Below, piece after piece: positions 2,147 to 62,716 of a stretch of DNA of 64,000 bases. Position 1 is the first letter of the stretch, and every line of letters begins with the position of its first letter. The stretch spans positions 1 to 64,000 of the forward strand of contig NZ_FZNY01000003.1 of the NCBI RefSeq assembly GCF_900188275.1, read 5' to 3'. Source of the stretch: Dokdonia pacifica (lineage in GTDB: Bacteria > Bacteroidota > Bacteroidia > Flavobacteriales > Flavobacteriaceae). Below the pieces are notes generated by a model that did no database searches, was not told where the DNA came from, and worked only from the letters and a program-made list of their open reading frames with translations. Position numbers and translations under genes: made by a program.

Positions 2147-2569
2147 TTATTTAGCAAATAGTTGGCTGTCGTCTTTAAAGGCTTTGAATTCAAGCGCATT
2201 TCCACAAGGGTCATAAAAAAACATAGTGGCTTGCTCACCTACTAATCCTTCAAATCGAATATAAGGTTCAATCACAAAAGTGATATGAGGTGTTATCGCT
2301 TTCGCGAAAGCGTGAAAATCATCCCACCCAAGTACAACACCGAAATGAGGTACGGGTACAGCCTTACCATCTACTTCATTGTGATGGTTTTCTTCTGTTT
2401 TGTTTTTCTCTTTATAATGAATAACAAGTTGGTGACCGAAAAAATTAAAGTCAACCCAATGGTCACTACTTCTTCCTTCTTCTAGTTGTAGAATATCTCT
2501 ATAAAATACTCTGGCTTTTTCTACATGATCCACTGGAATTGCTAAGTGGAAGGGTCTTACGTTGCTCAT
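2147..2569 (-). CDS. VOC-superfamily (glyoxalase/bleomycin-resistance fold) protein
   Basis: A 140-residue protein with the vicinal-oxygen-chelate pattern: an N-terminal [20 protein letters not shown] strand-helix and a C-terminal [14 protein letters not shown], where His8 and the Glu of LEFK are in the positions of the usual metal ligands. VOC members include lyases, dioxygenases and resistance proteins, and the substrate cannot be told here. The genomic palindrome CGCTTTCGCGAAAGCG lies at 2297-2312 and is translated as AFAKA within [10 protein letters not shown]. It is the last gene of a minus-strand run, 5 bp after the hydrolase gene. Confidence 0.85.
2297..2312. repeat. Intragenic CGCTTTCGCGAAAGCG palindrome (AFAKA frame)
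   Basis: Perfect 16-bp palindrome inside the VOC gene, read as Ala-Phe-Ala-Lys-Ala on the minus strand. Confidence 0.95.
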
Positions 2570-2574
2570 AGGTT

Positions 2575-3414
2575 TTATGTTATAAATTCGATAATGTGAT
2601 TACGTACTTCATCTTGGTATAACGAATGTCCAAGACCAGAAGTTTCTATATAGGTGCTGTCTTTCCAATTTTTATGAATCCCTCTAGAGGCTTCTACTGG
2701 AGTGATTTTGTCATAAACATCATGTATAATAAGCCCTGGAATGTCTATTGATTGTGCAAAACTATATCCAGAAAACTCTTTAATAGCAAATCCAAAACGT
2801 TGTTGGATTAAGCTGTCTAGCCCTCTCATCACCATATTATTCATACTAAGAATCTTTTGGTAGTCTTTCATAATTTCCGAAAGCTCGGAAGGAGCGCCTA
2901 GGCTTACTAGCTTTTTTATATAGGTAGGTTGGTGTTTATAATAGTGGAAAATGGTGGTTAATGCTCCTACAGAATGCCCAATATGAAATTTAGGTTGATA
3001 ATGTTGCGAGACTATTTCTAAACTTTCTGTGTATAAAGGAACATTTAAAATCTTACCCGTAGAATTTCCATGAGCAGGGGCATCAAAACTAACAATATTG
3101 TAATGATGACTTTGTAATACTTCTATAAGACGCCACCATCTATGAGCATTACTTTCCCAACCGTGTATTAATAAAACGGTAGGACCAGAGCCTTCCCATT
3201 TATAGGTTTGAACAGTTACCGTGTCATTGATTTTTAATTGTTCGTCTTTAGCAGCGTTTAAGAATTCCTTTTGATCTTCTTTAATACGTCCTCCTCTAGG
3301 AGTACAAAATATTAAAAAAGCTTTGCGTGCGGCAGCTTTTTTTGACCATAAAGACATGGCATTAATTTGAGTGCCTATAATCTTAGGTAATAATTTAATA
3401 AGGATTTTTTTCAA
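2575..3414 (-). CDS. Alpha/beta-hydrolase family protein
   Basis: A 279-residue protein with the alpha/beta-hydrolase signature: oxyanion-hole HGW at residues 84-86, nucleophile elbow GHSVG (Ser148), a late Asp in VYDKITPV and the catalytic His in GLGHSLYQ near the C-terminus. No signal peptide is evident; residues 1-35 are basic and may sit at the membrane. The start is a TTG two bases after the cupin stop codon, so translation is probably coupled to that gene. Likely an esterase or thioesterase-like enzyme with unknown substrate. Confidence 0.85.
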
Positions 3415-3416
3415 AC

Positions 3417-5984: not shown

Positions 5985-5999
5985 CGCTTTCGCGAAAGC
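5985..5999. repeat. Intergenic copy of the TTTCGCGAAA palindrome
   Basis: ATACGCTTTCGCGAAAGC in the divergent gap between the HerA-like gene and the RidA gene. It keeps the ATA that begins the long 67-bp element, so it may be a deletion remnant of one. Confidence 0.9.
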
Positions 6000-13212: not shown

Positions 13213-13220
13213 TAAGATGT

Positions 13221-13287
13221 ATACGCTTTAACGCTACGCTCTCCCTTTGGTCGTGAATCTCACAAGTTCGATTTCGCGAAAGCGTAT
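13221..13287 (-). repeat. 67-bp dispersed repeat (long TTTCGCGAAA element), minus orientation
   Basis: Begins ATACGCTTTAACGCTACGC and ends TTTCGCGAAAGCGTAT. Terminal inverted repeats are ATACGCTTT/AAAGCGTAT. It lies between the convergent Lrp and helical-protein genes and may serve as a terminator hairpin. Confidence 0.95.
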
Positions 13288-13320
13288 ATCTAAAAAACAT
13301 TATCTAACCTTATAGTGTGA

Positions 13321-19289: not shown

Positions 19290-19290
19290 T

Positions 19291-19422
19291 ATACGCTTTC
19301 GCGAAATCGAACTTGTGAGATTCACGACCGGAGGGAGAATGAAATGGTAAATCGAGCCTGCGAGACCTGCCTACCGGCAGGCAGGTTCACGACCAGAGGG
19401 AGAGCGTAGCGTTAAAGCGTAT
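19291..19422 (+). repeat. Long TTTCGCGAAA element, tandem composite
   Basis: Two unit-lengths: the first starts ATACGCTTTCGCGAAATCGA, the second ends AGCGTTAAAGCGTAT. The second unit contains the extra palindrome CCTGCCTACCGGCAGGCAGG at 19366-19385. It begins right after the stop codon of the T9SS gene and ends next to the stop of the convergent dihydrofolate-reductase-like gene. Confidence 0.95.
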
Positions 19423-19424
19423 AA

Positions 19425-21271: not shown

Positions 21272-21733
21272 TTATTTTAAGATTAATTCCATTTTTATAT
21301 TAGCTCTGTCGTAATTTGATGTGGTCTCTAGCGGGATTTCAACAAATCCCCATTTTTTATATATATAAATAGCGTTTTCAAGAAGGGTATTGGAGTATAA
21401 AACAAGTTTTGGAGCATTTTCTGCTTTCGCGAAAGCAATACAATGCGCCATCAATTTTTGCCCAATTCCTTTACCACGTATGGTCGTATTTACCGCCATT
21501 TTTGTGAGTTCGTAGACGTTTGCTTCTTGCATAGGCATTAACGCTACAGTACCCACAACATTTCCATCAATAAGCGCGAAAAAAATATGACCTCCTTTTG
21601 AAATAATATATTTTTCAGGATTACTTAATACTTCATTATCATAAGGTTCTACATAAAAGAAGGTTTCAAGCCACTCGATATTAAGTGCTTTAAAATCGGA
21701 AGCATATATAGGATCATAAGTACTAATCTGCAT
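21272..21733 (-). CDS. GNAT-family N-acetyltransferase
   Basis: Start chosen at ATG 21733 (MQISTYDPIYASDF), giving 153 aa. GNAT features: ALMPMQEANVYELTKMAVNTTIRGKGIGQKL (the R-G-x-G-I/G acetyl-CoA pyrophosphate loop), KLVLYSNTLLENAIYIYKKWGFVEIP. It overlaps the end of hutG by 11 bp and is the last gene of that operon. GCTTTCGCGAAAGC at 21423-21436 is translated IAFAKAENA. Acetyl acceptor unknown. Confidence 0.88.
   Translation of the reverse strand: MQISTYDPIYASDFKALNIEWLETFFYVEPYDNEVLSNPEKYIISKGGHIFFALIDGNVVGTVALMPMQEANVYELTKMAVNTTIRGKGIGQKLMAHCIAFAKAENAPKLVLYSNTLLENAIYIYKKWGFVEIPLETTSNYDRANIKMELILK
21423..21436. repeat. Intragenic TTTCGCGAAA palindrome (AFAKA frame)
   Basis: GCTTTCGCGAAAGC inside the GNAT gene. 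Confidence 0.95.
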
Positions 21734-22732: not shown

Positions 22733-23302
22733 TTATTTTTTTGCTAAAGCCTGAATACAAGCTTCCCGAATATGCCACATTTTATCAAGTGTATAAGGGA
22801 TATTATCTCGTTGTATCCAATCTTTAAGAATAGATTTATGATAAGAAACTTTATAATCAAGAATTTGATCAGGATCGATGGTTGTCTCAATAAGAATATC
22901 TGGTTCCCATAATTTTTCAGAATTCCCAGGAAATGTAAAATCATACCGTTCATTATCATAGCTTAAGAAGGTATGTGCTTCTAGAATATAGGGTAGTGCA
23001 TATGCATCAAGTATTCTTCCTACACCTGGTGTATTTTGCTCGGTCATTGAGAAAATACAAAGATTAAGGCTTATGCTATGAATCTCATTTTCTTCAGCTA
23101 GTGTTTTTAAGCATGCATTTTTTGTAGAGCAGGTTCCTACACCTTCTCGTATAATGCTCGCAATATTACGCGGGTTTTTGTTACGTCCATATGGAAGGTT
23201 ATGGATATAACGTACCGCATCATGAAAGGTTTTAATCTTTTTGATTAAAAATTGATCTGAAACGGGATTTCCTCCTGTTAAGTTAAAGTTTGGTAAACTC
23301 AT
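22733..23302 (-). CDS. Transglutaminase-like protein embedded in the hut operon
   Basis: A 189-residue protein with no match I recognise. Its pattern EGVGTCSTKNACLKTLAEE (Cys58), then ILEAHTFLSYDNERYDFT (His110, Asp121) has the Cys-His-Asp spacing of transglutaminase-like cysteine hydrolases. It overlaps hutI by an ATGA and is followed closely by hutG, so it is almost certainly in the histidine-utilisation operon. Its role there is not part of the standard pathway. It could act on a pathway intermediate or a peptide; that is speculation. Confidence 0.75.
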   Translation of the reverse strand: MSLPNFNLTGGNPVSDQFLIKKIKTFHDAVRYIHNLPYGRNKNPRNIASIIREGVGTCSTKNACLKTLAEENEIHSISLNLCIFSMTEQNTPGVGRILDAYALPYILEAHTFLSYDNERYDFTFPGNSEKLWEPDILIETTIDPDQILDYKVSYHKSILKDWIQRDNIPYTLDKMWHIREACIQALAKK

Positions 23303-41500: not shown

Positions 41501-41580
41501 GGGATGGTTGGTTTGCTATAACTACGATCGTTATTGTGTTATGAAGAAAAAGGTACGATAAAAAATAATAGCTACTTTAT

Positions 41581-42127: not shown

Positions 42128-42194
42128 ACTCTTTGACAAGTTTTGGCTCGTGCCGTTGGTTATTGAACCACTTGACAATGTTTATGATTGCTTG
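42121..42194. repeat. attC-like imperfect palindrome at the 3' end of the NTPase gene
   Basis: Outer arms CAAGCA/TGCTTG, then partly matched inner arms (TTGACAAGTTTTGGCTC against GAACCACTTGACAA on the other side) around a CGTTGG-containing core. It sits 2 bp beyond the stop codon of the NTPase gene. The size and bulged stem recall the attC sites of integron cassettes, which is inference. Confidence 0.6.
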
Positions 42195-42196
42195 CG

Positions 42197-45100
42197 TCAG
42201 GTGTTCTTGGTGTTAATAACTCCTTTTAATTCTTCTTTGTCAAAATAGTAAGCTCCACTGATTTCTAATCTTCCTAGATAGTCAGTTCCAAAAGATCGTC
42301 CTCCAATTATTTGCTTTTCTCCCAATACTGTCCAAACAACTTTTAAATTATTTTCATTAAGAAACTTCAAAAAAGAAGTCTTTCGGACAAGCAGATATGA
42401 TTTCGAATTATGATAAACATTTGGTGCAAAGCATTGTACTACTTTAGAGTCGTCAACAAATTCCCCTTCTCTTGGACTATATTTTAAATCCATACCCTTA
42501 TGAACAACGGTACTTGGTTTTAAAAAACTAATGGTTTCTTCTTTTGATTTATCAAACTCTTCCTCCCATAAAAAACCTTGTGCAGTTACATTGACTTCTG
42601 CTACATACTCCCCTGATTTCCTGTCATGAACTTCTGTCCATTCAGTGCCTCCATAATAATCAGACATAAAATAGTCCTGAGCTGGTGACCAATAATATTC
42701 TCTGCTGAACATTTCGTATCTGTCACCACTTTCAGGCATCCAACGCCCCATGAATTCCTGTTCGATAGCCCAATCTTTAAATGAGTCATATTCATCATCT
42801 TTAACTAGATAACTTCTAATGTGACACCAAAGCTTTTTATGTGGTTGATCCCATTTTTCTTCACCAATTTTTTTCGGTTCTGACCAAGATGGATATCCCT
42901 CCAATACCAACCATTCTTCTCCCAGACCATCTTTAACCTGGATGATTTCTTCCATTTTAGGCAATTCATTTGAGTCATTTACCCAGCTTTCGTTTGTACA
43001 GTCCCAATTAAATATTTTGTTGTTAACCCACCAGAAATCTTGAGGCTCGTCATCATCATAACTTCCTGTTTCACTAATAACCAATGTTGGATCAATATCT
43101 CTTATGTAAGGATCCCAAGGGCCTAGGTATGGCACTTCTTTTTCCTTTTCAAAACTCCATCTTTCATATTTCTTGAAATTGTCCGAAACTCGCGCTACCA
43201 TTTCGTAAAGAGCAATCCACTGGTACTTTTTGCCAATTCTTTCAATCGTAGAAGCTCGCCTATTATATGAATTAGTGTTTCTGTCATATTCTCCATGTTT
43301 TTCTACGTCATAACCATATTTTTCAAAAATCCACTCAATAGCAAGATTACTTAGCTGGTTTGTATTAACATCCCATGACCTTAAAGCACTTTCAAAAGTG
43401 TATCTTCCAAAATCTCCGTATCCACCAGTACCTCGACCGTATTCGGTTGTCATTGAACTAAGAATCGAATTCTGAGACCAATAATGCTTTTTGAAATCCT
43501 TGGCGTCATAATCGAATTTGTATTTTTTATCGATTTCCTTATTAGTCATGGTTTTGTGAGGAAATAAACTTTTGTACGGAGGTCTTACATCTTCAATATC
43601 AAAAGGTAATTCAATACCCGAGAAACTTGTAAACTCAATTACCCCTCTAGCATAATCACGGAGTAGAACATGCGGATAAACTTCATCTTTATCCTTAAAT
43701 ATGGTTTCGTATATATAATTACTTAGGACTGCTAATTCCTCTTTCTTATTTGTTCTCACTGCACAACCGTAAGCAACTGCAAACAAACGATCATAAACGT
43801 AAGGGTCATTTACCGTTTCAAACTTTTGAAGGAGTTCAATAAGTACCTGAACTCTGTCTTGAAGCAAGCAAATCATTGCTTTTGTGGAACAGTCTCGAAG
43901 TTCTCTATTTGTAGAAGTATGAAACCATGATAAGGTAATGCTCGAAAGTAAAACTGATTCATCCGAGATGTGCGATTTGTCTGTTTCATTCCATGCCCAA
44001 TCAATAAGCCGTTTTACTGATGATTCATTATCATATTTGTATTTCAGCAATTGAGTCCAATTTGTATCTCGGTCAGCAAGTGAGAACTTGAGTAAATGAT
44101 TATGTAAAGAGTGGGCATTGAAGAAATGGTTAGGTATTGCTGTAACCGCAAGAATAGTTTCCCAGAAATAATCATGTGTACCTTGGTAGGATAATACATG
44201 TTCATTTACATATTTCTTTGACTCTTCATTAATGGTATCTACCTTTCTCCAAAGTAAACTTTCAACAAAAGACTCAACAATTGGATATTTATCCTTTAAG
44301 TCAGGAATAAGACTATAAAACTCATAACCTTTGATTTCAGGAATCTGAATTGAAAAGGCCTCAATTAGTCCTTTATACCTATAAACTGCGTTTTCATTTT
44401 CTACATATTTGTACAGTTTGCCATTTTCTTTGAAATCTTTCTCAAATTCAGGATATTGTTCAAGCAAGCATTGAACAGCTAAATGGTCTTCAAATCGCTC
44501 GTAGGTTAAATAAACTCCCTCTTCATAATCATCCGCTTCTTTCCAAAAGAGGTTTTTTGATAGTACACCTTCTGTAATTAATTCATCTATAAATCCTTTT
44601 TTGTTGATAAAACTTGAAATAGATTCATTGACGACTTCATAAGCTTGTTCATATGGCACATACCTAAGTTCATTGTCAACTTTGCACTTTATTAAAGCAT
44701 TAATGGATTTTTGTACTAGGTTTAAACTATCAGAGTACCCAACTCTTTTTGGTTTCGATAAAACAATATTAACGTTTTTGACGAAAAAGTTAATAATTGA
44801 AGTTATGCCTTGAAGACCATCTGGGATACGGGTTAATCCTGCTTTGTTTATTCCTTCACAAAATAATTTTAAGAAGAGTGGGTTTTGAAATTCTGGGTGC
44901 AACAGAGGTACATTAGGCAGTTCAATGCTGTAATTGTCAAAAAACAATTTGCTTGCTTCATATTCGATATTCCTAAATCCATAATGATGATGTTCTACTA
45001 TTTTTAGACTAGATCTTTCTTCTTTAGGAAAAATTAAGTTTTTGTAGGAAGTTCTTATAGTGAATACAAGCCCAAGCCATTCATATTTCTTTATCTCATT

Positions 45101-46441
45101 AATGAAACTTTTTACAAACTCGTTCCAGAAGTAGTTTCCTTTTCCTTCATTAATCGCATCAATAAAAAGAACTATTCTCTTTCCGGATTCTTCAGCTTTT
45201 TGATTTAATTTTCTAAGAAAATCTGAAGACTTAGAATTGATTTGAAGTCTTTTAAAAATTTGTGTCCACGGGTCTTCCTCCGTAACAAAATGCTGCCCCA
45301 GAAGAAAAACACTTTCATGTTCTTTTTTAATTCTCCTTGAAACTATATCTCCAATCAAATGTGATTTCCCAATGCCAGCTTCACCATCTAGTAATAAAAA
45401 AGGATTATTAACAAGTTTAAATGAAGAGCTATGAATTAAATTTTGAAAAGTAGAAAGCTCGTGTTCAAACTCTCTAATATTTCTTAATTCAGTACCGTGT
45501 TTATGATAATATTGGTAGTCATTTTTTTCTTTTTGTACTTTACGTTCTTCTGTTATATAGTAGTCATAAACACCTTGAACAGAGCTTTGAGACTTGTTCA
45601 ATAAGTCTTCAAAGTCATTTACTGGAATTGATGCAGTTCCTAAGAAATCAGTATTATGAAACAAAGTCTGTAATTCATCAAAGGCATTTTCTAAACTCTC
45701 AAGACCTTCTTTAACTTCAGGTTGATTCTTTAATACTTTTTTTCCTTTTATCAGAAACTGATCAAATTGCTTTGTTACTTTCCTTTTAAATTGTTCGGTT
45801 CTTCCTAGGCCTTCGAATATTTCAGATACTTCAAGTTTTACATTTAGCTCAGGAGTGTACCTTTTTCCAAGGTCATCAATTGATGATTTACATTGCTCCT
45901 TGAACCAATCTTGATCTGGTTGAAATGTCGTTTCGGAGTGAAGAGTTTGGACAGTAGAACCTATTGTGTCAAGTTTTCTTTCTATCCTATTGATACTTTC
46001 ACCTAAATCAAAGATTTTGCCCTTATAATTTTCTTCAATAAATAACTTCTTGAGTTTACTGTCATAGCTCATCTTTTCTGTGAAAATCCCATAAAATGCT
46101 TCCAATTCACTAGTGCTAGGAATCAAAATGTTGGAGTTAGTTTTCAATAATTCAATGACAGATCCATAATCGATTTGTGAATTGTTGAATAGAATATACT
46201 TGTTTAGTTCATCAAATAATATTTGGGAATGATAAAAAGAGAACTTGTCGGAAGCGATATCTGCTGTGTTTTTTTTCTCATATTCCTCAACTGTTTCATA
46301 TATTACTTTAACTAGTCTATTTTGATACTTTTTTGTAGGAAAGAAAAGTTTTTTAAGCCTTCCGTAACCTTGTTCTTTTATAAATTGATCAACAAACTTT
46401 AGAGATACGTATGTTATTATTGTAATTGATACTGGCTCCAT
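42197..46441 (-). CDS. Large STAND-type NTPase, candidate anti-phage defence protein
   Basis: A 1414-residue protein. Residues 1-170 form a helical N-terminal region (MEPVSITIITYVSLKFV...), perhaps an effector/membrane-associated domain. From about 310-600 is a STAND/NACHT-type NTPase: LLLDGEAGIGKSHLI (Walker A, Lys near 357), RIVLFIDAINEGKG (Walker B near 424), LVFTIRTSYKN (sensor) and FLKLFCEGINKAG. The rest (about 620-1414) is a long helical-repeat-like sensor region, W/Y/D-rich at the C-terminus (RYEMFSREYYWSP, VWTVLGEKQIIGG). The architecture fits antiviral STAND (Avs-type) proteins; the N-terminal effector type is unclear. Bounded on each side by a large palindrome. Confidence 0.75.
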   Translation of the reverse strand: MEPVSITIITYVSLKFVDQFIKEQGYGRLKKLFFPTKKYQNRLVKVIYETVEEYEKKNTADIASDKFSFYHSQILFDELNKYILFNNSQIDYGSVIELLKTNSNILIPSTSELEAFYGIFTEKMSYDSKLKKLFIEENYKGKIFDLGESINRIERKLDTIGSTVQTLHSETTFQPDQDWFKEQCKSSIDDLGKRYTPELNVKLEVSEIFEGLGRTEQFKRKVTKQFDQFLIKGKKVLKNQPEVKEGLESLENAFDELQTLFHNTDFLGTASIPVNDFEDLLNKSQSSVQGVYDYYITEERKVQKEKNDYQYYHKHGTELRNIREFEHELSTFQNLIHSSSFKLVNNPFLLLDGEAGIGKSHLIGDIVSRRIKKEHESVFLLGQHFVTEEDPWTQIFKRLQINSKSSDFLRKLNQKAEESGKRIVLFIDAINEGKGNYFWNEFVKSFINEIKKYEWLGLVFTIRTSYKNLIFPKEERSSLKIVEHHHYGFRNIEYEASKLFFDNYSIELPNVPLLHPEFQNPLFLKLFCEGINKAGLTRIPDGLQGITSIINFFVKNVNIVLSKPKRVGYSDSLNLVQKSINALIKCKVDNELRYVPYEQAYEVVNESISSFINKKGFIDELITEGVLSKNLFWKEADDYEEGVYLTYERFEDHLAVQCLLEQYPEFEKDFKENGKLYKYVENENAVYRYKGLIEAFSIQIPEIKGYEFYSLIPDLKDKYPIVESFVESLLWRKVDTINEESKKYVNEHVLSYQGTHDYFWETILAVTAIPNHFFNAHSLHNHLLKFSLADRDTNWTQLLKYKYDNESSVKRLIDWAWNETDKSHISDESVLLSSITLSWFHTSTNRELRDCSTKAMICLLQDRVQVLIELLQKFETVNDPYVYDRLFAVAYGCAVRTNKKEELAVLSNYIYETIFKDKDEVYPHVLLRDYARGVIEFTSFSGIELPFDIEDVRPPYKSLFPHKTMTNKEIDKKYKFDYDAKDFKKHYWSQNSILSSMTTEYGRGTGGYGDFGRYTFESALRSWDVNTNQLSNLAIEWIFEKYGYDVEKHGEYDRNTNSYNRRASTIERIGKKYQWIALYEMVARVSDNFKKYERWSFEKEKEVPYLGPWDPYIRDIDPTLVISETGSYDDDEPQDFWWVNNKIFNWDCTNESWVNDSNELPKMEEIIQVKDGLGEEWLVLEGYPSWSEPKKIGEEKWDQPHKKLWCHIRSYLVKDDEYDSFKDWAIEQEFMGRWMPESGDRYEMFSREYYWSPAQDYFMSDYYGGTEWTEVHDRKSGEYVAEVNVTAQGFLWEEEFDKSKEETISFLKPSTVVHKGMDLKYSPREGEFVDDSKVVQCFAPNVYHNSKSYLLVRKTSFLKFLNENNLKVVWTVLGEKQIIGGRSFGTDYLGRLEISGAYYFDKEELKGVINTKNT

Positions 46442-46500
46442 ATTTTAATAAATATTGTCATTTCCTAGCTAAGAATAGCTCTTTGGGTTTGCGTGGTGAC

Positions 46501-46535
46501 AAAAGCCAAATGTGCTATTTGTGCGGTGGCTTTTT
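46501..46535. terminator. Terminator-like hairpin
   Basis: AAAAGCCA...TGGCTTTTT with a loop of about 20 bases, in the gap between NTPase and helicase genes; it can act on either strand. Confidence 0.5.
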
Positions 46536-46548
46536 CATTTTCCAATGG

Positions 46549-46679
46549 CATACAACGGTTAATATATGAAAAGTAGGCGATTTCTAGGTACTAAACTTTT
46601 GGTTAAGCACAAAGTTTGAAGTGAGCCAAAACCTCCGAATTTATCACTTTTCCGTCTGTTTTTTATATACATTGTTATG
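46549..46679. repeat. Long imperfect palindrome (attC-like) between the two defence genes
   Basis: Outer arms CATACAACGGTTAATATATG and (reverse) CATAACAATGTATATAAAAA; next arms GAAAAGTAGGCGATTTCTAGG against GAAAAGTGATAAATTCGG; inner arms TTTTGGTT / AGCCAAAA. It starts about 108 bp upstream of the NTPase start and ends 11 bp beyond the helicase stop codon. Confidence 0.6.
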
Positions 46680-46689
46680 TTTTCGTACT

Positions 46690-48849
46690 TTATTTCACTT
46701 TGTCTATTAGGTTTTTCAACTTACTATGATACTCTTCATTTCCAAAGTTTATTATTATCAAATTCGCTCTACTTCTAGTAATTCCTGTATACAAAATTTC
46801 ATCAAAAGTCATTTGCATTTGGGAATACTTCTTTTCAAGAATTAGGAAAAGTGTTTCACTTTCCCAACCTTTAAAGCTGTGAACTGTAGATATTTTAACA
46901 GTTCCACTATTCATATAGAAATGTATTTTTTTATTATTTCTAATCATTTTCAGATTACTGGTCTGTCTCTTTGGACCAAAATCCTTTATAAAATCATTGA
47001 TTTCTGATTCATACTTTTCTCTAAATGCTAGATAATCTTTTGTTGTTGTCTTAAATTTTGTGGAATAATAATCAAGTTTGTCTTTGAACTTATCGCCATA
47101 TTCTTTATAAAGGTCATAGATTGTAAACAAAACACTTAATTGATTAAAAGCATTGTCTGCCTTATAATCATTTTGACGTTTTATTAATAGTATTCCATCT
47201 TTTAACCAAGTTGGTTGATTGTTTTTCTTTATGTAATTCAGTCCCATTCTGTAAACCATTTCAAATGTTTCAAACATTGTATTTGTTTTTTCATTTGAAG
47301 AATATCGGTAATAGGCATCAAACTTTTTAAGCAATGAAATTGAATGACCTAAAATGGTTATGTCATTTGGTGGAATATCCTTATTTATTGCGTTTGCGTG
47401 TATTATTGTATAAAGACTGGTTACATTATCTGTATTTGTTAAATGAATATAATTTAGAGTGCCTTGTTGATTTCTTCCAAAATCAAACTCCAAATTATTC
47501 TGTTTAGCATTAAAATTGTCTATTTCATACTTGTCTTTAAAAATGTCTCTTTGATAATGTATCGCCAAGTCCTTTATTTTAAAGTCTGAACGGAAACAAT
47601 TTTTTAATTCTGTCACACCTCTAACATTTGTAGAAACATCTTTTCCGTCTGTTGTATTATTGTATATATTTTGCTTTACGTCTCCGAATAGTACATATTC
47701 TCCATTTTCACTTAAAAAACATTCTTTTACTATTTCCATCCAAGCTCTTTTGTAATCTTGAATTTCATCAATTAGAATTACATCATAGGTTTTAATATCG
47801 TCTTTTCGTTCTAGAAAAAGTTTCTTGTTTGAATAGTATTTATTTTCAAAAAAAGCATCCTTGTCAACATCACTTAATTCGTTAAAATCTTTAGGTACTT
47901 CAACTGGAATACCAAGGTTGTTCAATTGAGAATTAATAAATAAGTGATAATTTAATATTACAAAGTTTTCCCAAGGAAATTCTTCTCTAACATCACTAAT
48001 TTTGTCTTTAATGTAGTTTCGTAACGTAATATTGAAAGTCAAGATTAAGACATTTCCATTTGTTCGTTTATGTGCTTGAACTGCTCTTGCAGCAAGAATT
48101 GTAGTTTTACCTGAACCTACAACACCTTTAATTCTTTGTTCTTTTCTTGTGGAATCATAAATGATTTCCATTTGTTTTTTGCTGTACTTAATTTCTTTTC
48201 CTTGTTCTTTTATATGGATTGGTGGTTTTAAAAAACGCTTAAAACTTTCATAAATATCGTCTGTAAATAGAAAAGAAGTTCTGTCCGATTTTAAATATCT
48301 TTTTTTGAGGATTTTGTTAAAATCAAGTTCATTAAGATTATCTCGCCCGATTAGGTCAATGTTATATTTTAAGAATTTTTGATAATTGAAATTTTCTTCA
48401 AATGGATTAATCATTAACTCCTTTATTTTCTCTGAGTTAGCCTTATGAAAGTAAACAGCAGAAGTTACAATATTGAAGTTTCTAATGTCCTTTATCTTTT
48501 TCTCTAATAATTTGTCAATGTGTAACTCGTAAAGGTTGTCTTTGTACTTTAATACTTGTGAAATTGGTGATTTATAAGTTTTTGCCTTATTACTTTTAAC
48601 AACAAAGTTTTTTCTGTCATCAAGTTCGTACAAGTCCAAATTATAGTCTTTGACCTCAATAATCATTACTCCATACCCTTTCCGCATAATTACTATGTCT
48701 GGTCTATCTCCATTCATATATGGATTGAAGTAAATCTCAAATGATGAATCTAGTTCTTTGTCTAAAAATTTTAACAGATATAATTCTCCTTCTTCTGGTT
48801 TGACTTTCATTGTCAAAACTTTTTCATAAGAAGGAATCAATGTCGCCAT
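46690..48849 (-). CDS. NERD-nuclease / UvrD-like helicase fusion, candidate defence protein
   Basis: A 719-residue protein. Residues about 10-120 form a NERD domain: GDRPDIVIMRKGYGVMIIEVKDY gives the PD-(D/E)xK-like catalytic set (Asp51, Glu65, Lys67). From about 220 is an SF1 helicase: GVVGSGKTTILAARAV (Walker A), DVILIDEIQDYKRAW (Walker B), VKISTVHSFKGWESETLFLI and LYTGITRSRANLIIIN (late motifs). Such fusions occur in defence loci; a single-gene nuclease-helicase, Nhi, is a known analogue. Codon and repeat content suggest acquisition with the NTPase gene. Terminates near the long palindrome. Confidence 0.8.
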   Translation of the reverse strand: MATLIPSYEKVLTMKVKPEEGELYLLKFLDKELDSSFEIYFNPYMNGDRPDIVIMRKGYGVMIIEVKDYNLDLYELDDRKNFVVKSNKAKTYKSPISQVLKYKDNLYELHIDKLLEKKIKDIRNFNIVTSAVYFHKANSEKIKELMINPFEENFNYQKFLKYNIDLIGRDNLNELDFNKILKKRYLKSDRTSFLFTDDIYESFKRFLKPPIHIKEQGKEIKYSKKQMEIIYDSTRKEQRIKGVVGSGKTTILAARAVQAHKRTNGNVLILTFNITLRNYIKDKISDVREEFPWENFVILNYHLFINSQLNNLGIPVEVPKDFNELSDVDKDAFFENKYYSNKKLFLERKDDIKTYDVILIDEIQDYKRAWMEIVKECFLSENGEYVLFGDVKQNIYNNTTDGKDVSTNVRGVTELKNCFRSDFKIKDLAIHYQRDIFKDKYEIDNFNAKQNNLEFDFGRNQQGTLNYIHLTNTDNVTSLYTIIHANAINKDIPPNDITILGHSISLLKKFDAYYRYSSNEKTNTMFETFEMVYRMGLNYIKKNNQPTWLKDGILLIKRQNDYKADNAFNQLSVLFTIYDLYKEYGDKFKDKLDYYSTKFKTTTKDYLAFREKYESEINDFIKDFGPKRQTSNLKMIRNNKKIHFYMNSGTVKISTVHSFKGWESETLFLILEKKYSQMQMTFDEILYTGITRSRANLIIINFGNEEYHSKLKNLIDKVK

Positions 48850-49144
48850 TTATATTTTTAGTTTGAAGTTGTTTTTGTATGAAACATAACAACAATATAT
48901 AATACATATATCCTTTACGTCTCTTATACGCTTATTCACAAATCTAACGAAATATAAATGATATACTATTGATATTTTGAGAGTTAAGTATTTTTTGTTT
49001 CCGTTAAATACTATTCCTAAACCTACCCATTCCCAAGCATTCTACGTTACGGTTTCCCGTAGACCCAAAAAATAATACACCCATAGTACACATTAGAAAA
49101 TCTATTCCACCTTTGTACTACTGCAAATACGAACGCTATGCTGT

Positions 49145-49190
49145 ATTTTTTAATTTCATCATAGCGATGCTATGCAGAAATTAAGAAAAT
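49145..49190. repeat. Hairpin in the island-edge gap
   Basis: About 13-bp outer stem plus a 5-bp inner stem; may be a remnant of an accessory element or a transcript structure. Confidence 0.5.
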
Positions 49191-49252
49191 CCTAGTATTT
49201 ATTGTATTTCAAATGCTCATAACGAAGTTCTAATGTATACTCTGGGTTACAC

Positions 49253-49290
49253 AAAAAAAAGCCAGACACGTACACATATGTCTGACTTTT
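49253..49290. terminator. Bidirectional terminator at the end of the leu operon
   Basis: AAAAAGCCAGACA...TGTCTGACTTTT, 39 bp beyond the leuB stop codon. Confidence 0.85.
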
Positions 49291-49328
49291 CAAGAAACCT
49301 AGCATTGCTGCTATGGCTAAAACTATTT

Positions 49329-50444
49329 TTAGATAATCGTGCTTTGTCCCACAAATATGTTTTCAAAATTTCTATTTGGATCTTCAGGATTCATGATAAA
49401 ATCAGCAATAAAATCACCTACTTTTGAGGTGCCAAATGGATTTTCAGCATTCAGATCTTCAGTTGTAAAACCGAGTTCTAACGATTTTTCAACGGCCTTT
49501 TCTACCAGCGCGGCTTCTTTGTGCAAATTCAAATGACGTAATAATAGCGCGGCACTCAAAATACTTGCTAACGGATTGGCAATATCCTTCCCGGTCGCTT
49601 GCGGGAAACTCCCATGAATAGGTTCAAATAGTGCATTGTCTGTCCCAATAGATGCCGAAGCTAATAACCCGATAGAACCGCCTATCACGCTCGCTTCATC
49701 AGAGATAATATCACCAAATAAATTCTCTGTTAAAATCACATCAAACTGCTTCGGATTGAGGATCATTTGCATGGCCGCATTATCAACAAATAGAAAATCC
49801 AATTCCACATCTGGATACTCTTTTGCTATTTCTGTCACGGTTTTACGCCATAAACGCGATGTTTCCAACACATTTGCCTTATCGACAAGGGTGAGTTTAC
49901 GTTTTCGCGAAAGCGCTTCCTTAAACGCCAAATGCGCAATACGACTAATCTCTTCTACCGAATAGGAACACCCATCGGATGCTACTTGACCATCGTCACT
50001 TAAGTGTTTTTCTCCAAAATAAATACCCCCTGTGAGTTCGCGATATATAGAAATATCGGTTCCTACAATACGATCCTTTTTCAAAGGCGAACGTTCAATA
50101 AGTTGATCATAGGCTTTTACAGGTCTGATATTACAGAAAAGTCCTAGTGATTTACGAAGACGTAATAACCCTAGCTCAGGACGCACCTTTGCATTCGGAT
50201 CATTATCATATTTTGGATGTCCAATAGCACCAAATAGAATAGCATCTGCGGCTTCACAAATATCAATAGTCTCTTCTGGTAATGGATTTCCTGTCGCATC
50301 AATAGCACAAGCACCCATTAATGCAGGTGTATATGTAAAATGATGATCAAACATATCTGCAATAGCATCTAACGCTTTTTGAGCCTGTGCTGTCACTTCT
50401 GGTCCTATCCCGTCTCCAGGAATTATTGCGATGTTATAGTTCAT
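49329..50444 (-). CDS. leuB: 3-isopropylmalate dehydrogenase
   Basis: A 371-residue enzyme starting MNYNIAIIPGDGIGPEV. NAD+-dependent oxidative decarboxylation of 3-isopropylmalate. Active-site motifs: RPELGLLRLRKSLGLFCNIRP, DISIYRELTGGIYFGEK, DKANVLETSRLWRK, LTENLFGDIISDEAS and HGSFPQATGKD (NAD site). It is the last gene of the leuA-C-D-B operon. A palindrome at 49902-49916 is translated ALSRKRK (not AFAKA frame). Confidence 0.95.
   Translation of the reverse strand: MNYNIAIIPGDGIGPEVTAQAQKALDAIADMFDHHFTYTPALMGACAIDATGNPLPEETIDICEAADAILFGAIGHPKYDNDPNAKVRPELGLLRLRKSLGLFCNIRPVKAYDQLIERSPLKKDRIVGTDISIYRELTGGIYFGEKHLSDDGQVASDGCSYSVEEISRIAHLAFKEALSRKRKLTLVDKANVLETSRLWRKTVTEIAKEYPDVELDFLFVDNAAMQMILNPKQFDVILTENLFGDIISDEASVIGGSIGLLASASIGTDNALFEPIHGSFPQATGKDIANPLASILSAALLLRHLNLHKEAALVEKAVEKSLELGFTTEDLNAENPFGTSKVGDFIADFIMNPEDPNRNFENIFVGQSTII
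49902..49916. repeat. Intragenic TTTCGCGAAA palindrome (LSR frame)
   Basis: Inside leuB, TTTTCGCGAAAGCG, read Leu-Ser-Arg-Lys on the minus strand. Confidence 0.9.
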
Positions 50445-50666: not shown

Positions 50667-51281
50667 TCAAAACACCATTCGTTCTTTTTCAAATGCTTCG
50701 ATGGTATCTTTTTTACTCACTAAAAAGTCAATATCATCATATCCATTAATCAGGCATACTTTCTTGTACGGGTCTATCTCAAATTCCGATTTCGTACTTC
50801 GACCTTGCTCAGTATAAACTCCAGCATATTCTACCACCTGATTTTCCAAATCGACTGTGATTTTTGTTGCTGGATTTTCTTGAACACTCGTAAGTAATTG
50901 TTTTAAAAAATCGGGAGATACCTGAATAGGAAGCAGTCCGTTATTGAGTGCATTTCCTTTAAAGATATCGGCAAAAAAGCTTGAAATCACCACCTTTAAA
51001 CCGTATCCAGCAATCGCCCATGCGGCATGCTCACGACTCGAACCACAGCCAAAGTTGTCACCAGCAACGAGGATTTGAGCCTCTTTGTATTGCGGTGCAT
51101 TTAATGGGAAATCCATATTGAGATTTCCATCACTATCATAGCGCCAATCTCTAAATACATTGTCTCCAAATCCCTTCTTATCGGTTGCTTTTAAGAAACG
51201 CGCAGGAATGATCTGATCGGTATCTATATTTTCAATAGGTAACGGAATGGCTGTTGTCGTTAATTTTGTAAATCTTTCCAT
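50667..51281 (-). CDS. leuD: 3-isopropylmalate dehydratase small subunit
   Basis: A 204-residue protein: [70 protein letters not shown]. It forms the isopropylmalate isomerase with LeuC. Overlaps leuC by 1 bp. Residues about 155-168 ([13 protein letters not shown]) come from REP-like DNA at 50791-50815, so this stretch is likely an insertion in a surface loop. Confidence 0.94.
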
Positions 51282-52666
51282 TACGTAAGTATAGTTTTAG
51301 TGATATCTACTATTTTTCCTTCTATGGCAGTAGCTGCTGCTACCAGCGGACTTGCCAGTATGGTACGAGAACCTTGTCCTTGACGTCCTTCAAAGTTTCT
51401 GTTGGACGTAGAGACACAATACTCTCCTGCAGGAATTTTATCGTCATTCATCGCTAGACATGCAGAACATCCCGGTTCTCTAAGCGTAAACCCTGCATTT
51501 TTAAACACCTCATCAAGACCTTCTTCTTTCAGTTGTTTTACAACCTGTTGTGATCCTGGTACCAACCAAGCGTTTACATTGGGTGCTTTTTGTTTTCCTT
51601 TTACATAGCTGGCTGCGACTCTAAAATCTTCAATACGAGAATTGGTACAACTTCCTATAAATACATAATTAATTGTGGTGTCTAGTAATTGAGACCCGCC
51701 TTTAAAATCCATGTATTCTAATGCTTTTTCAAAGGTCATATCACCTGTTTCTGGAATATGCTCATTTATTTTGATGCCCATACCAGGGTTGGTTCCATAG
51801 GTAAGCATCGGTGCAATAGCTGCCGCATCAAAGTGATATTCTTTATCAAATGTAGCATCGGGATCGGTAGGAAGTGTTTTCCAGTAGGAGACCGCTTTCG
51901 CGAAAGCGTCCCCTTGCGGCGCAAATTTCTTTCCTTCTATATAATCAAATGTTGTTTGGTCTGGTGCAATCATGCCGCCACGAGCCCCCATTTCGATACT
52001 CATATTACAAACGGTCATACGGCCTTCCATAGACATTTCTTCAAAGACATTTCCTGCATATTCGCAGAAATAACCCGTACCTGCATTGGTGCCTATTTGT
52101 GAGATGATATATAAGATCACATCTTTAGGCAATACACCAGGCGCTAAGGTTCCATTGACGCTAACGCGTAGACTTTTTGGTTTTTTAAGAAGCAGACTTT
52201 GACTCGCAAATACTTGTGCTACTTGGCTGGTGCCAATTCCAAAAGCGATACTTCCAAAAGCACCATGAGTACTGGTGTGACTATCACCACATACCATAGT
52301 CATACCGGGTTGTGTGATGCCCAATTCTGGAGCCATCACGTGTACAATACCATTGTATTGATGTCCTAACCCATATAGTGTAATGCCGTGTTTGTCACAG
52401 TTTTTAGTGAGCTGCTCTAATTGGTTTCGCGAAAGCGGATCCTGAACAGGCAAATGCTGATTTACGGTAGGTGTATTATGATCTGCTGTGGCTACGATTT
52501 GATCTGGACGTGCAATAGGAATTCCTCTTGCTTCCAGCTCATTAAAGGCCTGCGGACTTGTGACTTCGTGAATTAAATGTTTGTCGATATATAAAATCTG
52601 AGGCCCATCGGGTATGGTATCTACCACGTGTGCATCCCAAACTTTATCAAATAATGTTTTTCCCAT
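51281..52666 (-). CDS. leuC: 3-isopropylmalate dehydratase large subunit
   Basis: A 461-residue aconitase-fold protein: [58 protein letters not shown], with three Cys (CTN and CSAC) that bind the 4Fe-4S cluster. Two copies of the genomic palindrome lie inside it: 51893-51908 (GDAFAKAVS) and about 52424-52438 (DPLSRNQL). Confidence 0.96.
51893..51908. repeat. Intragenic CGCTTTCGCGAAAGCG palindrome (AFAKA frame)
   Basis: In leuC; AFAKA within [11 protein letters not shown]. Confidence 0.95.
52424..52438. repeat. Intragenic TTTCGCGAAA palindrome (LSR frame)
   Basis: Second copy in leuC, read as Pro-Leu-Ser-Arg-Asn. Confidence 0.9.
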
Positions 52667-53034: not shown

Positions 53035-53039
53035 CATGT

Positions 53040-55906: not shown

Positions 55907-55919
55907 CGCTTTCGCGAAA
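55907..55919. repeat. Short TTTCGCGAAA palindrome, intergenic
   Basis: CGCTTTCGCGAAAA just after the helical-repeat gene. Confidence 0.85.
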
Positions 55920-56911: not shown

Positions 56912-56990
56912 CCGCTTTCGCGAAATCGAACTAGTGAGACCTGTCTACCAACAGGCATATTCACGACCGTATGGGAGAGCGAAGCGATGC
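56912..56990 (+). repeat. Degenerate long TTTCGCGAAA element
   Basis: CCGCTTTCGCGAAATCGAAC ... GGGAGAGCGAAGCGATGCAT; includes a degraded CCTGTCTACCAACAGGCA palindrome. It lies directly before the EamA gene and may affect its expression. Confidence 0.8.
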
Positions 56991-59940: not shown

Positions 59941-60009
59941 TATACGCTTTCGCGAAATCGAGCCTGTGAGATCCATGACCAAAGGGAGAGTGAAACGTTA
60001 AAGCGTATA
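59941..60009 (+). repeat. Long TTTCGCGAAA element, plus orientation
   Basis: TATACGCTTTCGCGAAATCG ... GAAACGTTAAAGCGTATA; complete with both terminal inverted repeats but diverged in the middle. Confidence 0.9.
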
Positions 60010-60154: not shown

Positions 60155-61225
60155 ATGAAAACCTTTATTCTTCTATTTTTTATAAGTTGTATGAGTCTAC
60201 CTATGTTTGCACAAGGAGGCAATTACGAATTGGTATGGTCTGATGAGTTTAATGTTGCGGGACCTATTGAGGCAACAAAATGGCACCATCAAACTCTGTT
60301 ACCTAATGGTAATAGTTGGTATAACGGAGAGATACAACACTACACCAATCGTATAGAGAATTCTTTTGTGAGTGATGGTACTTTAAAAATAGTTGCCAAA
60401 AAAGAAATATTTACAGATCAAGGATCTACCAAAACCCATACCTCAGCACGATTAAACTCTAAGTTTGCATTTACCTATGGTTATGTAGAAATACGTGCAA
60501 AACTACCTATAGGCATCGGTACATGGCCTGCCATGTGGACTTTAGGACAGAATATTACAGAACCTGGTGGTTACTGGTATGAAACCAATGGAGAAGTATC
60601 CTGGCCAGCTTGTGGAGAGATCGATATCATGGAGCATTGGGGAACTAATCAAAACTATGTGCAAAGTGCTATGCATACGCCTTCTAGCTTCGGAGATACG
60701 GTAAATAAAGGAGGACAAACGATTGCTACCGCTTCCTCTGCATTTCATATTTATGGATTAGAATGGACTCCAGATCGTATGGTATTTAGTGTAGATGGTA
60801 CAACGCATTATATCTATGAACCGTCCGTGCAAAATGCCAATACGTGGCCTTTTGATGCCCCTCAATATCTTTTATTGAATGTTGCGATATTACCAGAAAT
60901 TCTAGACTCTTTTACAGAAAGTGCTTTAGAAATAGATTATGTACGTGTCTTTCAAGATCCTACCTTGTCTATAACAGAAGAAGCAATAACGACGCGTATA
61001 CAACTTTCTCCAAACCCAGTAAGAGATACATTATCATTACAGGTTGCACCTACTATTATAGGCGCCAAAGCCACTGTATATAGTATGACAGGACAAAAAG
61101 TATATACAGCTACTATAGAAAGCGGAAATACGTTGGTAGATGTATCTGGCTATACAAAAGGAGTGTATTTTGTAACCATAGAAACTGGACAAACTAGCGT
61201 TACAAGACGTGTGATTAAACGATAA
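60155..61225 (+). CDS. GH16-family endo-beta-glucanase, T9SS type A
   Basis: A 356-residue protein: signal peptide (cut near MFAQ), GH16 catalytic domain (residues about 22-270) with GEIDIMEHWG carrying Glu-x-Asp-x-x-Glu near residues 155-160, and a C-terminal sorting domain (LSPNPVRDTLSLQV, YSMTGQ, YTKGVYFVTIE, RRVIKR). Laminarinase-like cleavage of beta-1,3(-1,4) glucans is likely, consistent with algal glucan use by marine Flavobacteria. Confidence 0.93.
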   Translation: MKTFILLFFISCMSLPMFAQGGNYELVWSDEFNVAGPIEATKWHHQTLLPNGNSWYNGEIQHYTNRIENSFVSDGTLKIVAKKEIFTDQGSTKTHTSARLNSKFAFTYGYVEIRAKLPIGIGTWPAMWTLGQNITEPGGYWYETNGEVSWPACGEIDIMEHWGTNQNYVQSAMHTPSSFGDTVNKGGQTIATASSAFHIYGLEWTPDRMVFSVDGTTHYIYEPSVQNANTWPFDAPQYLLLNVAILPEILDSFTESALEIDYVRVFQDPTLSITEEAITTRIQLSPNPVRDTLSLQVAPTIIGAKATVYSMTGQKVYTATIESGNTLVDVSGYTKGVYFVTIETGQTSVTRRVIKR

Positions 61226-61283
61226 TTAGCGTTTACAAAATGTATTCTTTATATCTTTATGAAGATGGTACGAATCTTTATAG

Positions 61284-62018
61284 ATGCTTAAAAAGTATAT
61301 TTCTTTACATATATATCCAAAACTGGCTTTATGGATCTTACTTGGATTTATAGGGTTTACGATTGTTGGTACGCTTACGCATGAGTTGGGTCATATCGCT
61401 TTCGCGAAAGCGTTTGATTATAAAACCCATTTGGGATATGGGTATATGAATTATTACGATAGTCCTTTCTCTATAGAATTTGATACTATTGCAGCTCGGA
61501 ATCAGGAGGCGATCGCATCTAATCGTGATTTTCCAGAGAAAGAACGCTTAGATACACTTGTTGAAAAACTTAAAATCAGTTCATTTCTCATTACCCTTGG
61601 AGGTCCTTTACAAACTACTATTTCAGGGACTGTTGGTTTTGCTTTTCTATGTAGTTGGAGAAGGCGTATAAGAGAATATGGAATGAAATTAAAGGACTGG
61701 ATCTTTGTATTTATTTCTTTGTTCTGGTTGCGACAACTCGCAAATCCTGTGACTGGTTTGATGCGATCTATAGCTAAAGGCGGTTTTAATCCTTTTGGAG
61801 GTCATAGTGATGAACTTGTACTTTCCAGATATTTAGGTTGGTGGGAAGGAAGCATTTCTTTACCATTAGCGCTTATTGCTTTAGGAATTGCCACCTATGT
61901 AATTTTTAAAATACTTCCTACACCCGTACGATTCACTTTTATAAGCGCAGGATTTATAGGAGGTGTATTAGGCTATATGATTTGGTTAGTTTGGATTGGG
62001 CCCGTTTTAATGCCTTAA
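61284..62018 (+). CDS. M50-like membrane metalloprotease
   Basis: A 244-residue protein with four to five TM helices. THELGHIAFAKAFDYK carries the zinc motif HExxH (His33-Glu34-Leu-Gly-His37), and LGGPLQTTISG is a second conserved region seen in M50-type families. The palindrome at 61397-61412 encodes AFAKA right after the zinc helix. Stop codon overlaps that of the RluA gene by 4 bp (convergent). Confidence 0.8.
   Translation: MLKKYISLHIYPKLALWILLGFIGFTIVGTLTHELGHIAFAKAFDYKTHLGYGYMNYYDSPFSIEFDTIAARNQEAIASNRDFPEKERLDTLVEKLKISSFLITLGGPLQTTISGTVGFAFLCSWRRRIREYGMKLKDWIFVFISLFWLRQLANPVTGLMRSIAKGGFNPFGGHSDELVLSRYLGWWEGSISLPLALIALGIATYVIFKILPTPVRFTFISAGFIGGVLGYMIWLVWIGPVLMP
61397..61412. repeat. 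Intragenic CGCTTTCGCGAAAGCG palindrome (AFAKA frame)
   Basis: In the M50-like protease, AFAKA within GHIAFAKAFDY. Confidence 0.95.
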
Positions 62019-62716
62019 CCTTCACACGCTTCCCAAACGACATCATCTTTAGGTACAGGAGCTACAAATGTCATTTCTTCTTTTTGTACGGGATGTACAA
62101 ACGTAAGTTTACGTGCATGTAAACTAATACTTCCGTCTTTATTAGAACGATCAAAACCATATTTCAAATCTCCCCGTATGGGACTTCCTATAGCTGTCAG
62201 TTGACTTCGTATTTGATGATGTCTTCCAGTGTGTAAATCAATTTCAAGAAGCGTAAAAGTTTTTAGTTTTTTGAGCACTCGATAGGTAAGACTTGCTTCT
62301 TTTGAATCTGGCACCGCTTTCGCGAAAGCGTAACTTTTATTCTGCTTTGTATTGCGTTTTAAATAATGAGTCAGCGTTGCTTTTTCAGGCGAAGGGTGCT
62401 TTTTGACCAATGCCCAATAGGTTTTTTGTGTCTTTCGTTCGGAGAATAATTTATTGAGACGTGTGAGTGCTTTACTGGTGCGAGCAAACACCACAATTCC
62501 ACTCGTAGGACGATCTAACCGATGTACAACTCCTAAAAAAACAGCGCCAGGTTTGTTATATTTTTTGGCAATATATTGCTTGACAACCTCGCTTAATGGT
62601 GCATCACCCGTTTTGTCACCTTGTACAATATCTCCCGCTCGTTTATTAATCACAATCAGATGATTGTCTTCATAAATCACTTGTAAATTTGTAGGTGTAG
62701 AATGCGTATGTGTCAT
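62015..62716 (-). CDS. RluA-family RNA pseudouridine synthase
   Basis: A 233-residue enzyme. The catalytic motif HRLDRPTSGIVVFA carries Asp68; LLEIDLHTGRHHQIRSQLTAIG is the conserved RNA-binding motif. No S4 domain. Modifies uridines in rRNA or tRNA; target site not determinable. A palindrome at 62315-62330 encodes AFAKA within SYAFAKAVPD. Confidence 0.93.
   Translation of the reverse strand: MTHTHSTPTNLQVIYEDNHLIVINKRAGDIVQGDKTGDAPLSEVVKQYIAKKYNKPGAVFLGVVHRLDRPTSGIVVFARTSKALTRLNKLFSERKTQKTYWALVKKHPSPEKATLTHYLKRNTKQNKSYAFAKAVPDSKEASLTYRVLKKLKTFTLLEIDLHTGRHHQIRSQLTAIGSPIRGDLKYGFDRSNKDGSISLHARKLTFVHPVQKEEMTFVAPVPKDDVVWEACEG
62315..62330. repeat. Intragenic CGCTTTCGCGAAAGCG palindrome (AFAKA frame)
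   Basis: In the RluA-type synthase gene. Confidence 0.95.

Follow-up and report, generated by a model that had tools for sequence, protein, structure and literature searches.

The 64,000-nucleotide stretch of Dokdonia pacifica DNA analysed here (positions 1 to 64,000 of contig NZ_FZNY01000003.1, hereafter the window) carries many copies of a perfect palindrome with the 10-bp core TTTCGCGAAA. We found that this core, in its full form 14-16 bp long, is best read as being kept at about one copy per 3-7 kb by selection or drive acting at the DNA level. We tentatively regard it as a self-DNA signal that is palindromic and lineage-specific; its most likely role is that of a DNA-uptake sequence. The argument draws on its excess, its exactness, its even spacing, its origin by substitution in leuC, its conservation between species, its all-or-none taxonomic distribution and its presence in phages with lysogeny genes. 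These properties suggest that a sequence-specific protein reads the palindrome, and the DNA-uptake machinery of natural transformation would be the most likely reader. We consider it rather probable, in broader terms, that the long palindrome represents a new class of self-DNA signature, serving either uptake or as an intracellular self-mark; such a class would have a putative, probably dimeric reader, would not be made by methylation, and would mark the chromosome and resident phages in three Flavobacteriaceae lineages.

The core occurs 20 times in the window (35% GC), the 14-mer GCTTTCGCGAAAGC eight times and the exact 16-mer CGCTTTCGCGAAAGCG six times. A first-pass annotation of the window had listed ten coding sites of a 16-bp palindrome. 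All ten exist, and the peptides given for them are right (AFAK(A/D) at eight sites, LSR at two), but the exact 16-mer accounts for only six copies, not ten, and the sites at 21423, 23904, 49902 and 52424 match over only 14, 12, 10 and 10 bp, respectively. Ten further cores had been missed (5988, 13272, 19297, 30123, 37244, 38278, 39590, 55910, 56916 and 59948); nine of them lie in no open reading frame (ORF) of at least 70 aa, and the one at 39590 lies in a doubtful 72-aa ORF. In the whole genome (5.52 Mb in 31 contigs) we counted 1195 copies of TTTCGCGAAA versus 15 of the reversed-word control, and 903 copies of GCTTTCGCGAAAGC versus 0, an excess far above chance, as the annotation had supposed. 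Further statistics were taken from four samples: 314 kb of this genome (G000), 400 kb of D. donghaensis DSW-1 (G016), 400 kb of G238 and 346 kb of G289. The G000 sample held 72 cores versus 0.31 expected from a second-order Markov model, and 48 14-mers versus 0.0004 expected. Core density in the host samples was 177-340 per Mb. Given this gross genome-wide excess, the earlier comparison with the highly iterated palindrome (HIP) HIP1 is apt as a description.

Alignment of the copies showed the 10-bp core with rare single variants, a strong preference for 14-16 bp, and weaker T-rich flanks that extend to about -16 in G289 (sites 40 bp or less from a stretch end were excluded from the flank statistics). 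The fullest intergenic form in D. pacifica is the 24-bp palindrome TATACGCTTTCGCGAAAGCGTATA, of which seven exact copies were present in 314 kb and none in the G016, G238 and G289 samples. Copies of the 14-mer at 0, 1 and 2 mismatches numbered 48, 15 and 12 in G000, 116, 7 and 23 in G016, 51, 18 and 27 in G238, and 64, 7 and 5 in G289, while 60 shuffled control palindromes averaged 0, 0.02-0.05 and 0.18-0.77. The inner hexamer TCGCGA was hardly or not enriched on its own: outside the core it occurred 17, 23, 93 and 16 times in G000, G016, G238 and G289 versus 14, 23, 71 and 21 expected, G238 being somewhat above expectation. Half-sites outside the palindrome showed a modest excess at most (31 versus 18 expected in G000, 36 versus 25 in G016, 83 versus 70 in G238 and 18 versus 20 in G289). 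The rarity of mismatches and the scarce enrichment of the hexamer and half-sites indicate that the selected unit is longer than the usual range of methyltransferase sites.

The palindrome was found both within and between genes. Core densities per kb in coding and intergenic DNA were 0.13 and 1.09 in G000, 0.21 and 1.73 in G016, 0.17 and 0.29 in G238, and 0.11 and 0.76 in G289, with 35 of 72 copies in the G000 sample and 75 of 136 in the G016 sample lying inside ORFs. Gene calls were simple non-overlapping ORFs, two versions of which gave 33/39 and 35/37 coding/intergenic sites in G000. The 203 coding sites of the four samples were read as AFAKA in 99 cases, LSRK in 59 and RFRES in 45. A frame preference therefore exists, but the claim of strong frame selection in which RFRES is never used applies to the window only; this frame is used at 4 of 35 coding sites in the 314-kb sample of the same genome and at 18 of 75 in the 400 kb of D. 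donghaensis. The spacing of copies was more even than random, with a coefficient of variation of 0.67-0.69 versus about 1 in the first contiguous sets. Gaps shorter than 1 kb were correspondingly few (12 versus 36 expected in G016, 3 versus 10 in G238 and 0 versus 11 in G289). Inspection by eye of 20 stretches from each of the single-contig genomes G016 and G238 revealed no obvious trend along the chromosome, so the suggestion of a chromosome-organisation site is favoured by the even spacing and disfavoured by the lack of a trend.

How individual copies arose was most clearly seen in leuC, for which we compared codon alignments from 25 genomes. The AFAKA site was identical in all 11 Dokdonia, synonymous positions included, and the 14 non-Dokdonia genes had other residues there without any gap. 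The LSR site, also gapless across the 25 genomes, carried the core in four Dokdonia and in G238. Among the 20 genes without this core, five other genera and one Dokdonia encode LSR by other codons, and the rest read MSR (six Dokdonia), LSK (one genus) or LSA (seven). Since both sites are gapless, they originated by substitution and not by insertion, and the LSR site, whose peptide is encoded by other codons in five non-carrier genera, represents recoding and no new peptide. The proposal of insertions tolerated as a short helical peptide thus fails in leuC, the one gene analysed in depth. Whether orthologues already encoded the peptide has a divided answer: none of the 14 outside the genus has AFAKA, but LSR pre-exists in five genera. 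At window position 55012, too, a site was gained or lost between G000 and G013 by substitutions only.

Once present, sites were preserved well beyond their surroundings, as counted in alignments longer than 250 bp. In G014 (85% identity), 14 of 15 aligned window sites were exact versus 23.6% of other 10-mers and 14.6% of CpG-rich 10-mers. G013 (76% identity) kept six of nine versus 8% of other 10-mers, G015 three of three, and G238 (71% identity), from a different genus, two of four versus 3%. The non-carrier G030 kept none of three.

The taxonomic distribution was close to all-or-none. Among 397 genomes of the family (own genome included), six had 559-1195 cores and 391 had at most 34. The six were G000 and G011; G027, G289 and G441, which belong to one other genus (g11); and G238 from a third. 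In a second set of 79 genomes (own genome included), all 17 Dokdonia congeners had 481-1107 cores and G027 had 595, while the other 60 had at most 12. Across 392 genomes of the phylum, the 14-mer occurred 903 times in the own genome and at most six times in any of the remaining 391. Similarly, 79 of 80 RF3 loci of other bacteria, nearly all Flavobacteriaceae, lacked the core and one had a single copy, in a set from which near relatives may be missing. In a tree of ParB (30 genomes, one gene), the three carrier genera did not form one clade: the three g11 species grouped with the non-carrier G029 (support 97/95), and G238 with the non-carrier G024 (90/67). G013 has the lowest number of copies per Mb among Dokdonia (663 in 4.3 Mb) and reads TTTTGCAAAA at the places matching window positions 21425 and 25004, the pattern expected from CG to TG/CA changes on either side.

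We further found the palindrome in phages. Scanning viral contigs with the 16-mer gave hits in 41 stretches, spread over 30 contigs. Of four contigs tested, three carried genes for a portal, terminase, major head, baseplate or tape-measure protein and are therefore phages; the single ORF tested in the fourth gave no match. Among loci with relatives of one head protein, five had 2-3 cores each, but these are 99-100% identical in that protein and hence not independent, and 30 more distant loci (20-58% identical) had none. Of six loci encoding a relative of one terminase, five (74-100% identical) had 2-5 cores, and the sixth (34%) had none. Three phages, each 36-38 kb long and encoding a Mu-type transposase (G823, G815 and G828; loci L405-L410), whose hosts are presumed carriers, held 8, 5 and 5 cores, or 214, 130 and 137 per Mb, densities biased upward because the records were selected by the 16-mer and so have at least one copy each, several being near-identical. 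A CI-like repressor was found in G823 and G815; G828 was not scanned for one. These phages are 66-68% identical in pairs and share only 2-4% of their 10-mers, and homologous cores were kept in two of four aligned cases between G823 and G815, three of four between G823 and G828, and two of three between G815 and G828. An integrase was present in 8 of 24 carrier phage records (fragments included) and in one of six others. Every phage with a readable life style has lysogeny genes, in a survey in which most records are fragments and strictly lytic phages of carriers were left out. By comparison, PMC6776037 reports that almost all temperate Pasteurellaceae phages profiled accumulate the uptake signal sequence (USS), and that large, probably lytic ones do not. 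Presence in temperate phages is thus consistent with an uptake signal, but the same pattern would follow from a self-mark.

Small clusters of palindromes also occur in non-carriers, nine of which were sampled, with cluster genes examined in six (G191, G155 and G367 being left out). In G208, G149 and G029 they fall within genes of heavy-metal efflux (outer-membrane efflux, HlyD, AcrB, FUR-family regulator and P-type ATPase; loci L270, L271, L273, L275 and L282-L284), and in G208 and G149 the palindromes occupy the same two offsets of one gene. These clusters are probably DNA received from carriers. The proteins tested in the clusters of G090, G224 and G366 were SHMT, pirin and AbiEii. The three copies at L272 in G191 have another context in common, TTTTCGCGAAAGACAGACA; the cluster there is thus probably a local repeat with no relation to the signature.

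Three less likely explanations were weighed against these data. In a HIP1-like methylation ratchet, a methyltransferase would modify the site, and methylation-tied repair or selection would build the palindrome (Elhai 2015). The genomic style is that of HIP1 as described in PMC4390886, being palindromic, coding and non-coding, lineage-specific and generated by substitution, and methyltransferases are not rare in carriers. PF00145, searched in 79 genomes, was found in 8 of the 17 Dokdonia congeners (one or two each, D. donghaensis included; 8 of 18 Dokdonia with the own genome). PF01555, PF02086 and PF07669 were searched in 20 genomes each; PF02086 was present in 9 of 12 Dokdonia, and PF07669 exceeded the cut-off in 20 of 20 genomes. 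However, PF00145 is lacking in the own genome and in nine further Dokdonia, of which six are 99% complete or better; PF01555 was over the cut-off in none of the 12 Dokdonia tested; and PF02086 is absent from G006, G008, G009, G027, G289 and G238. PF07669 is equally present in non-carriers, and many of its matches, including those in the carriers G003, G014, G289 and G238 (best E above 1e-6), are weak and probably represent generic methyltransferases. We thus found no methyltransferase convincingly common to all carriers in these four Pfam families (PF02384 and minor families were not searched). Together with the 10-16 bp length of the conserved unit, this leaves the methylation site proposed in the first-pass annotation unsupported, and with TCGCGA near expectation outside the core we regard the ratchet as improbable. 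A transcription terminator or RNA hairpin appears less likely still. The 24-mer can fold into an RNA stem of 10 bp (-9.7 kcal/mol) and many of the intergenic copies follow a stop codon at short distance, but convergent spacers (7 copies in 6.8 kb) were no richer in sites than tandem ones (24 in 18.6 kb) or divergent ones (5 in 5.9 kb; three copies at stretch edges left out), and about half of the copies lie inside ORFs. Least likely of all, in our view, is a mobile palindromic element of the repetitive extragenic palindrome (REP), Rickettsia palindromic element (RPE) or miniature inverted-repeat transposable element (MITE) kind inserted into genes and spacers. Sites are indeed 1.7 to 8.7 times denser between genes in the four genomes, and a unit of about 45 bp occupies many intergenic copies in D. 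pacifica: 14 of 39 in the 314-kb sample contain one or two such units, placed within the palindrome immediately behind TTTCGCGAAA, and some of these include a nested palindrome resembling CCTGCCTGCCGGCAGGCAGG. The leuC sites are nevertheless gapless against 14 genomes outside the genus (other genes were compared with close relatives only), the difference at 55012 involves substitutions alone, and the unit is missing from the G014 alignments at window 13272, where the alignment starts at the core, and 19297. The unit pattern was also absent from the G016 and G289 samples (400 and 346 kb) and rare in G238 (3 in 400 kb). The unit looks like a small repeat that takes the palindrome as its target, a later passenger.

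The main rival is an intracellular self-mark or chromosome-organising site read by a dimeric DNA-binding protein with a nucleoid-structuring, repair/recombination or defence-related role, where DNA without the palindrome would fare worse and chromosomes and prophages would be selected for regularly spaced copies. We consider this possible, if somewhat doubtful. It would account for the two-fold symmetry, a footprint of 14-24 bp, the even spacing and the conservation in phages only 66-68% identical, and the three carrier genera are not joined on the ParB tree, as if a reader gene had moved. On the other side, there is no candidate protein. All 16 carriers and all 16 non-carriers tested have a chromosomal ParB, the chromosomes of G016 and G238 show no trend by eye, and the phages of readable life style, though many records are fragments, all have lysogeny genes. 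A parS- or Noc-type site was tried and rejected, as no ParB-family protein peculiar to carriers was found in the 32 genomes, and no second ParB is common to the 16 carriers tested, an extra 616-aa ParB protein being confined among them to G000 and G015. ORFs of 616 aa with a ParB_N domain lie at G000:C21:474723, G015:C154:11961 and G029:C18:76088, the last near several palindromes on one contig, possibly a conjugative element.

The preferred reading, an uptake sequence, rests on a recognisable pattern: a long exact word, even spacing, T-rich flanks, origin by substitution, presence in temperate phages and lineage-specificity are together what an uptake sequence would leave. DNA fragments with the palindrome would enter cells in preference to others, after which recombination would propagate the exact word and maintain it at any place where the proteins allow, also in resident prophages, as with USS in Pasteurellaceae and the DNA uptake sequence (DUS) in Neisseriaceae. 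Within the same family, where Riemerella is placed, natural transformation with its own kind of genes is described in PMC8459023, and R. columbina prefers its own DNA according to PMC7965970.

A number of points weigh against uptake. The chief one is the perfect two-fold symmetry: a symmetric site suggests a dimeric DNA-binding protein, commonly an intracellular one, and so speaks for a dimeric intracellular reader. Moreover, G016 and G017 (73% identity) kept window sites in just one of four aligned cases each, and the phage sites that stay in the same place despite 66-68% identity could equally be of direct use to the phage. One of the Riemerella transformation genes encodes a DUF5689 domain (PMC8459023). 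Proteins with this domain occur in 30 of 30 genomes, carriers and non-carriers alike, which shows only that uptake machinery may exist. As a candidate receptor it was rejected, its tree failing to group the carriers; the protein evolves fast and some rows are long. Competence in Dokdonia would have to be presumed, and Flavobacterium johnsoniae proved non-competent in the conditions used (PMC7965970). In the table of Riemerella k-mers from the latter source, the top words, 7-10 bp in length, are A/T-rich only. Finally, the known uptake signals treated in PMC1939737 are not palindromes, although a non-palindromic form may be a habit of known uptake words and no requirement.

Comparison with known systems places the palindrome between classes. 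HIP1 (GCGATCGC) and the alternate cyanobacterial HIPs are likewise lineage-specific palindromes that number in the hundreds to thousands and occur in genes as well as outside them. According to PMC4390886, HIP1 is 8 bp long with 6-bp and 4-bp methyltransferase targets inside it, and Elhai tied the cyanobacterial HIPs to methyltransferases. Unlike HIP1, the unit here is 10-16 bp or more, has no convincingly common methyltransferase in the four families, and contains an inner 6-mer that is hardly enriched. USS and DUS, which occur at a density of about one per kb, share with it a long exact word, a copy number on the order of a thousand, even spacing, lineage-specificity and presence in temperate phages, but the present word is palindromic without orientation, belongs to Bacteroidota and occurs about once per 3-7 kb. 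Like the present palindrome, USS and DUS lie between genes more often than expected (PMC1939737). In competent Riemerella, no pilus homologues were found (PMC8459023). Over-representation in self DNA is also a property of Chi, of which E. coli has 1008 in 4.64 Mb (PMC1939737). In contrast to Chi, our motif is a long palindrome without direction. Chi sequences are 5-8 nt long and directional. Similar in layout are parS and Noc-binding sites, which are 16-bp palindromes on TTTC/GAAA half-sites, as is the present one; those sites number in the tens with a half-site spacing of 4, whereas here there are a thousand copies with a spacing of 2 and no second ParB common to carriers. No published account of TTTCGCGAAA or of a Dokdonia palindrome was found in the literature searched, mostly exclusive of subscription papers, and the passage of PMC12306157 on flavobacterial palindromic repeats does not contain this motif. 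Taken together, these results show a palindrome that is real and strong, apparently undescribed, HIP-like in form and uptake-sequence-like in behaviour, and a proven member of neither group.

The sites of the window are collected in Table 1. The M50 label given earlier to the ORF at 61284-62018 was not confirmed, as no Pfam match was obtained at E 1e-5. The longest site-free gap holds two genes, one for an Avs2-type STAND defence protein and one for a NERD-UvrD helicase (42197-48849), and in G014 only about 1.7 kb separates the matches that flank this region.

Table 1. Palindrome copies and related features of the window, with gene context and conservation
Feature	Position	Strand	Context
16-bp palindrome, HAFAKA	2297-2312		in ORF 2147-2569 (-); core kept in G014 and G013
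14-bp palindrome	5986-5999		intergenic, divergent genes; core kept in G014 and G013
Long element, core 13272-13281	13220-13288	-	one ~45-bp unit inside palindrome
Long element, core 19297-19306	19290-19423	+	two ~45-bp units and nested 20-bp palindrome; G014 has GCG after core
14-bp palindrome, IAFAKA	21423-21436		in GNAT gene 21272-21760 (-)
12-bp palindrome, PAFAKD	23904-23915		in amidohydrolase gene 23299-24528 (-)
16-bp palindrome, HAFAKA	25001-25016		in Cys/Met pyridoxal phosphate (PLP) enzyme gene 24615-25790 (+)
Long element, core 30123-30132	30026-30139	-	two ~45-bp units
16-bp palindrome, SAFAKA	32472-32487		in ankyrin gene 31560-32528 (-)
Long element, core 37244-37253	37237-37305	+	one ~45-bp unit
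Long element, core 38278-38287	38271-38359	+	~45-bp unit-bearing; nested CCTGCCTGCCGGCAGGCAGG
12-bp palindrome	39589-39600		edge of degenerate long element, about 39488-39606
Site-free gap, 10.3 kb	39600-49902		Avs2-type defence gene 42197-46441 and NERD-UvrD gene 46690-48849
10-bp core, ALSRKR	49903-49912		in leuB 49329-50444 (-); kept in G014 and G015
16-bp palindrome, DAFAKA	51893-51908		in leuC 51281-52666 (-); identical in 11 of 11 Dokdonia compared
10-bp core, PLSRNQ	52425-52434		in leuC; also in G013, G014, G015 and, from another genus, G238
10-bp core	55910-55919		intergenic; kept in G014
10-bp core	56916-56925		intergenic, within degenerate long element
Long element, core 59948-59957	59941-60009	+	one ~45-bp unit
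16-bp palindrome, IAFAKA	61397-61412		in ORF 61284-62018 (+)
16-bp palindrome, YAFAKA	62315-62330		in pseudouridine synthase gene 62015-62716 (-); core kept in G013, G014 and G238

As D. donghaensis DSW-1 is cultivable and fully sequenced (its PacBio RS II sequencing is described in PMC4974333), the question can be tested directly. Should the palindrome serve uptake, it would be a palindromic uptake signal and, to our knowledge, the first uptake signal in Bacteroidota. Sequence-specific uptake would then have evolved a further time, beyond Pasteurellaceae and Neisseriaceae, among bacteria whose competent representatives, where studied, have no pilus genes, and phages of marine flavobacteria would bear the palindrome as a tag of their host. 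If it is an intracellular mark, it would point to an undiscovered reader with sites every few kb throughout the genome, tying phages to their host. On either reading, the motif can flag transferred DNA, as it probably does in the heavy-metal efflux clusters of other genera.

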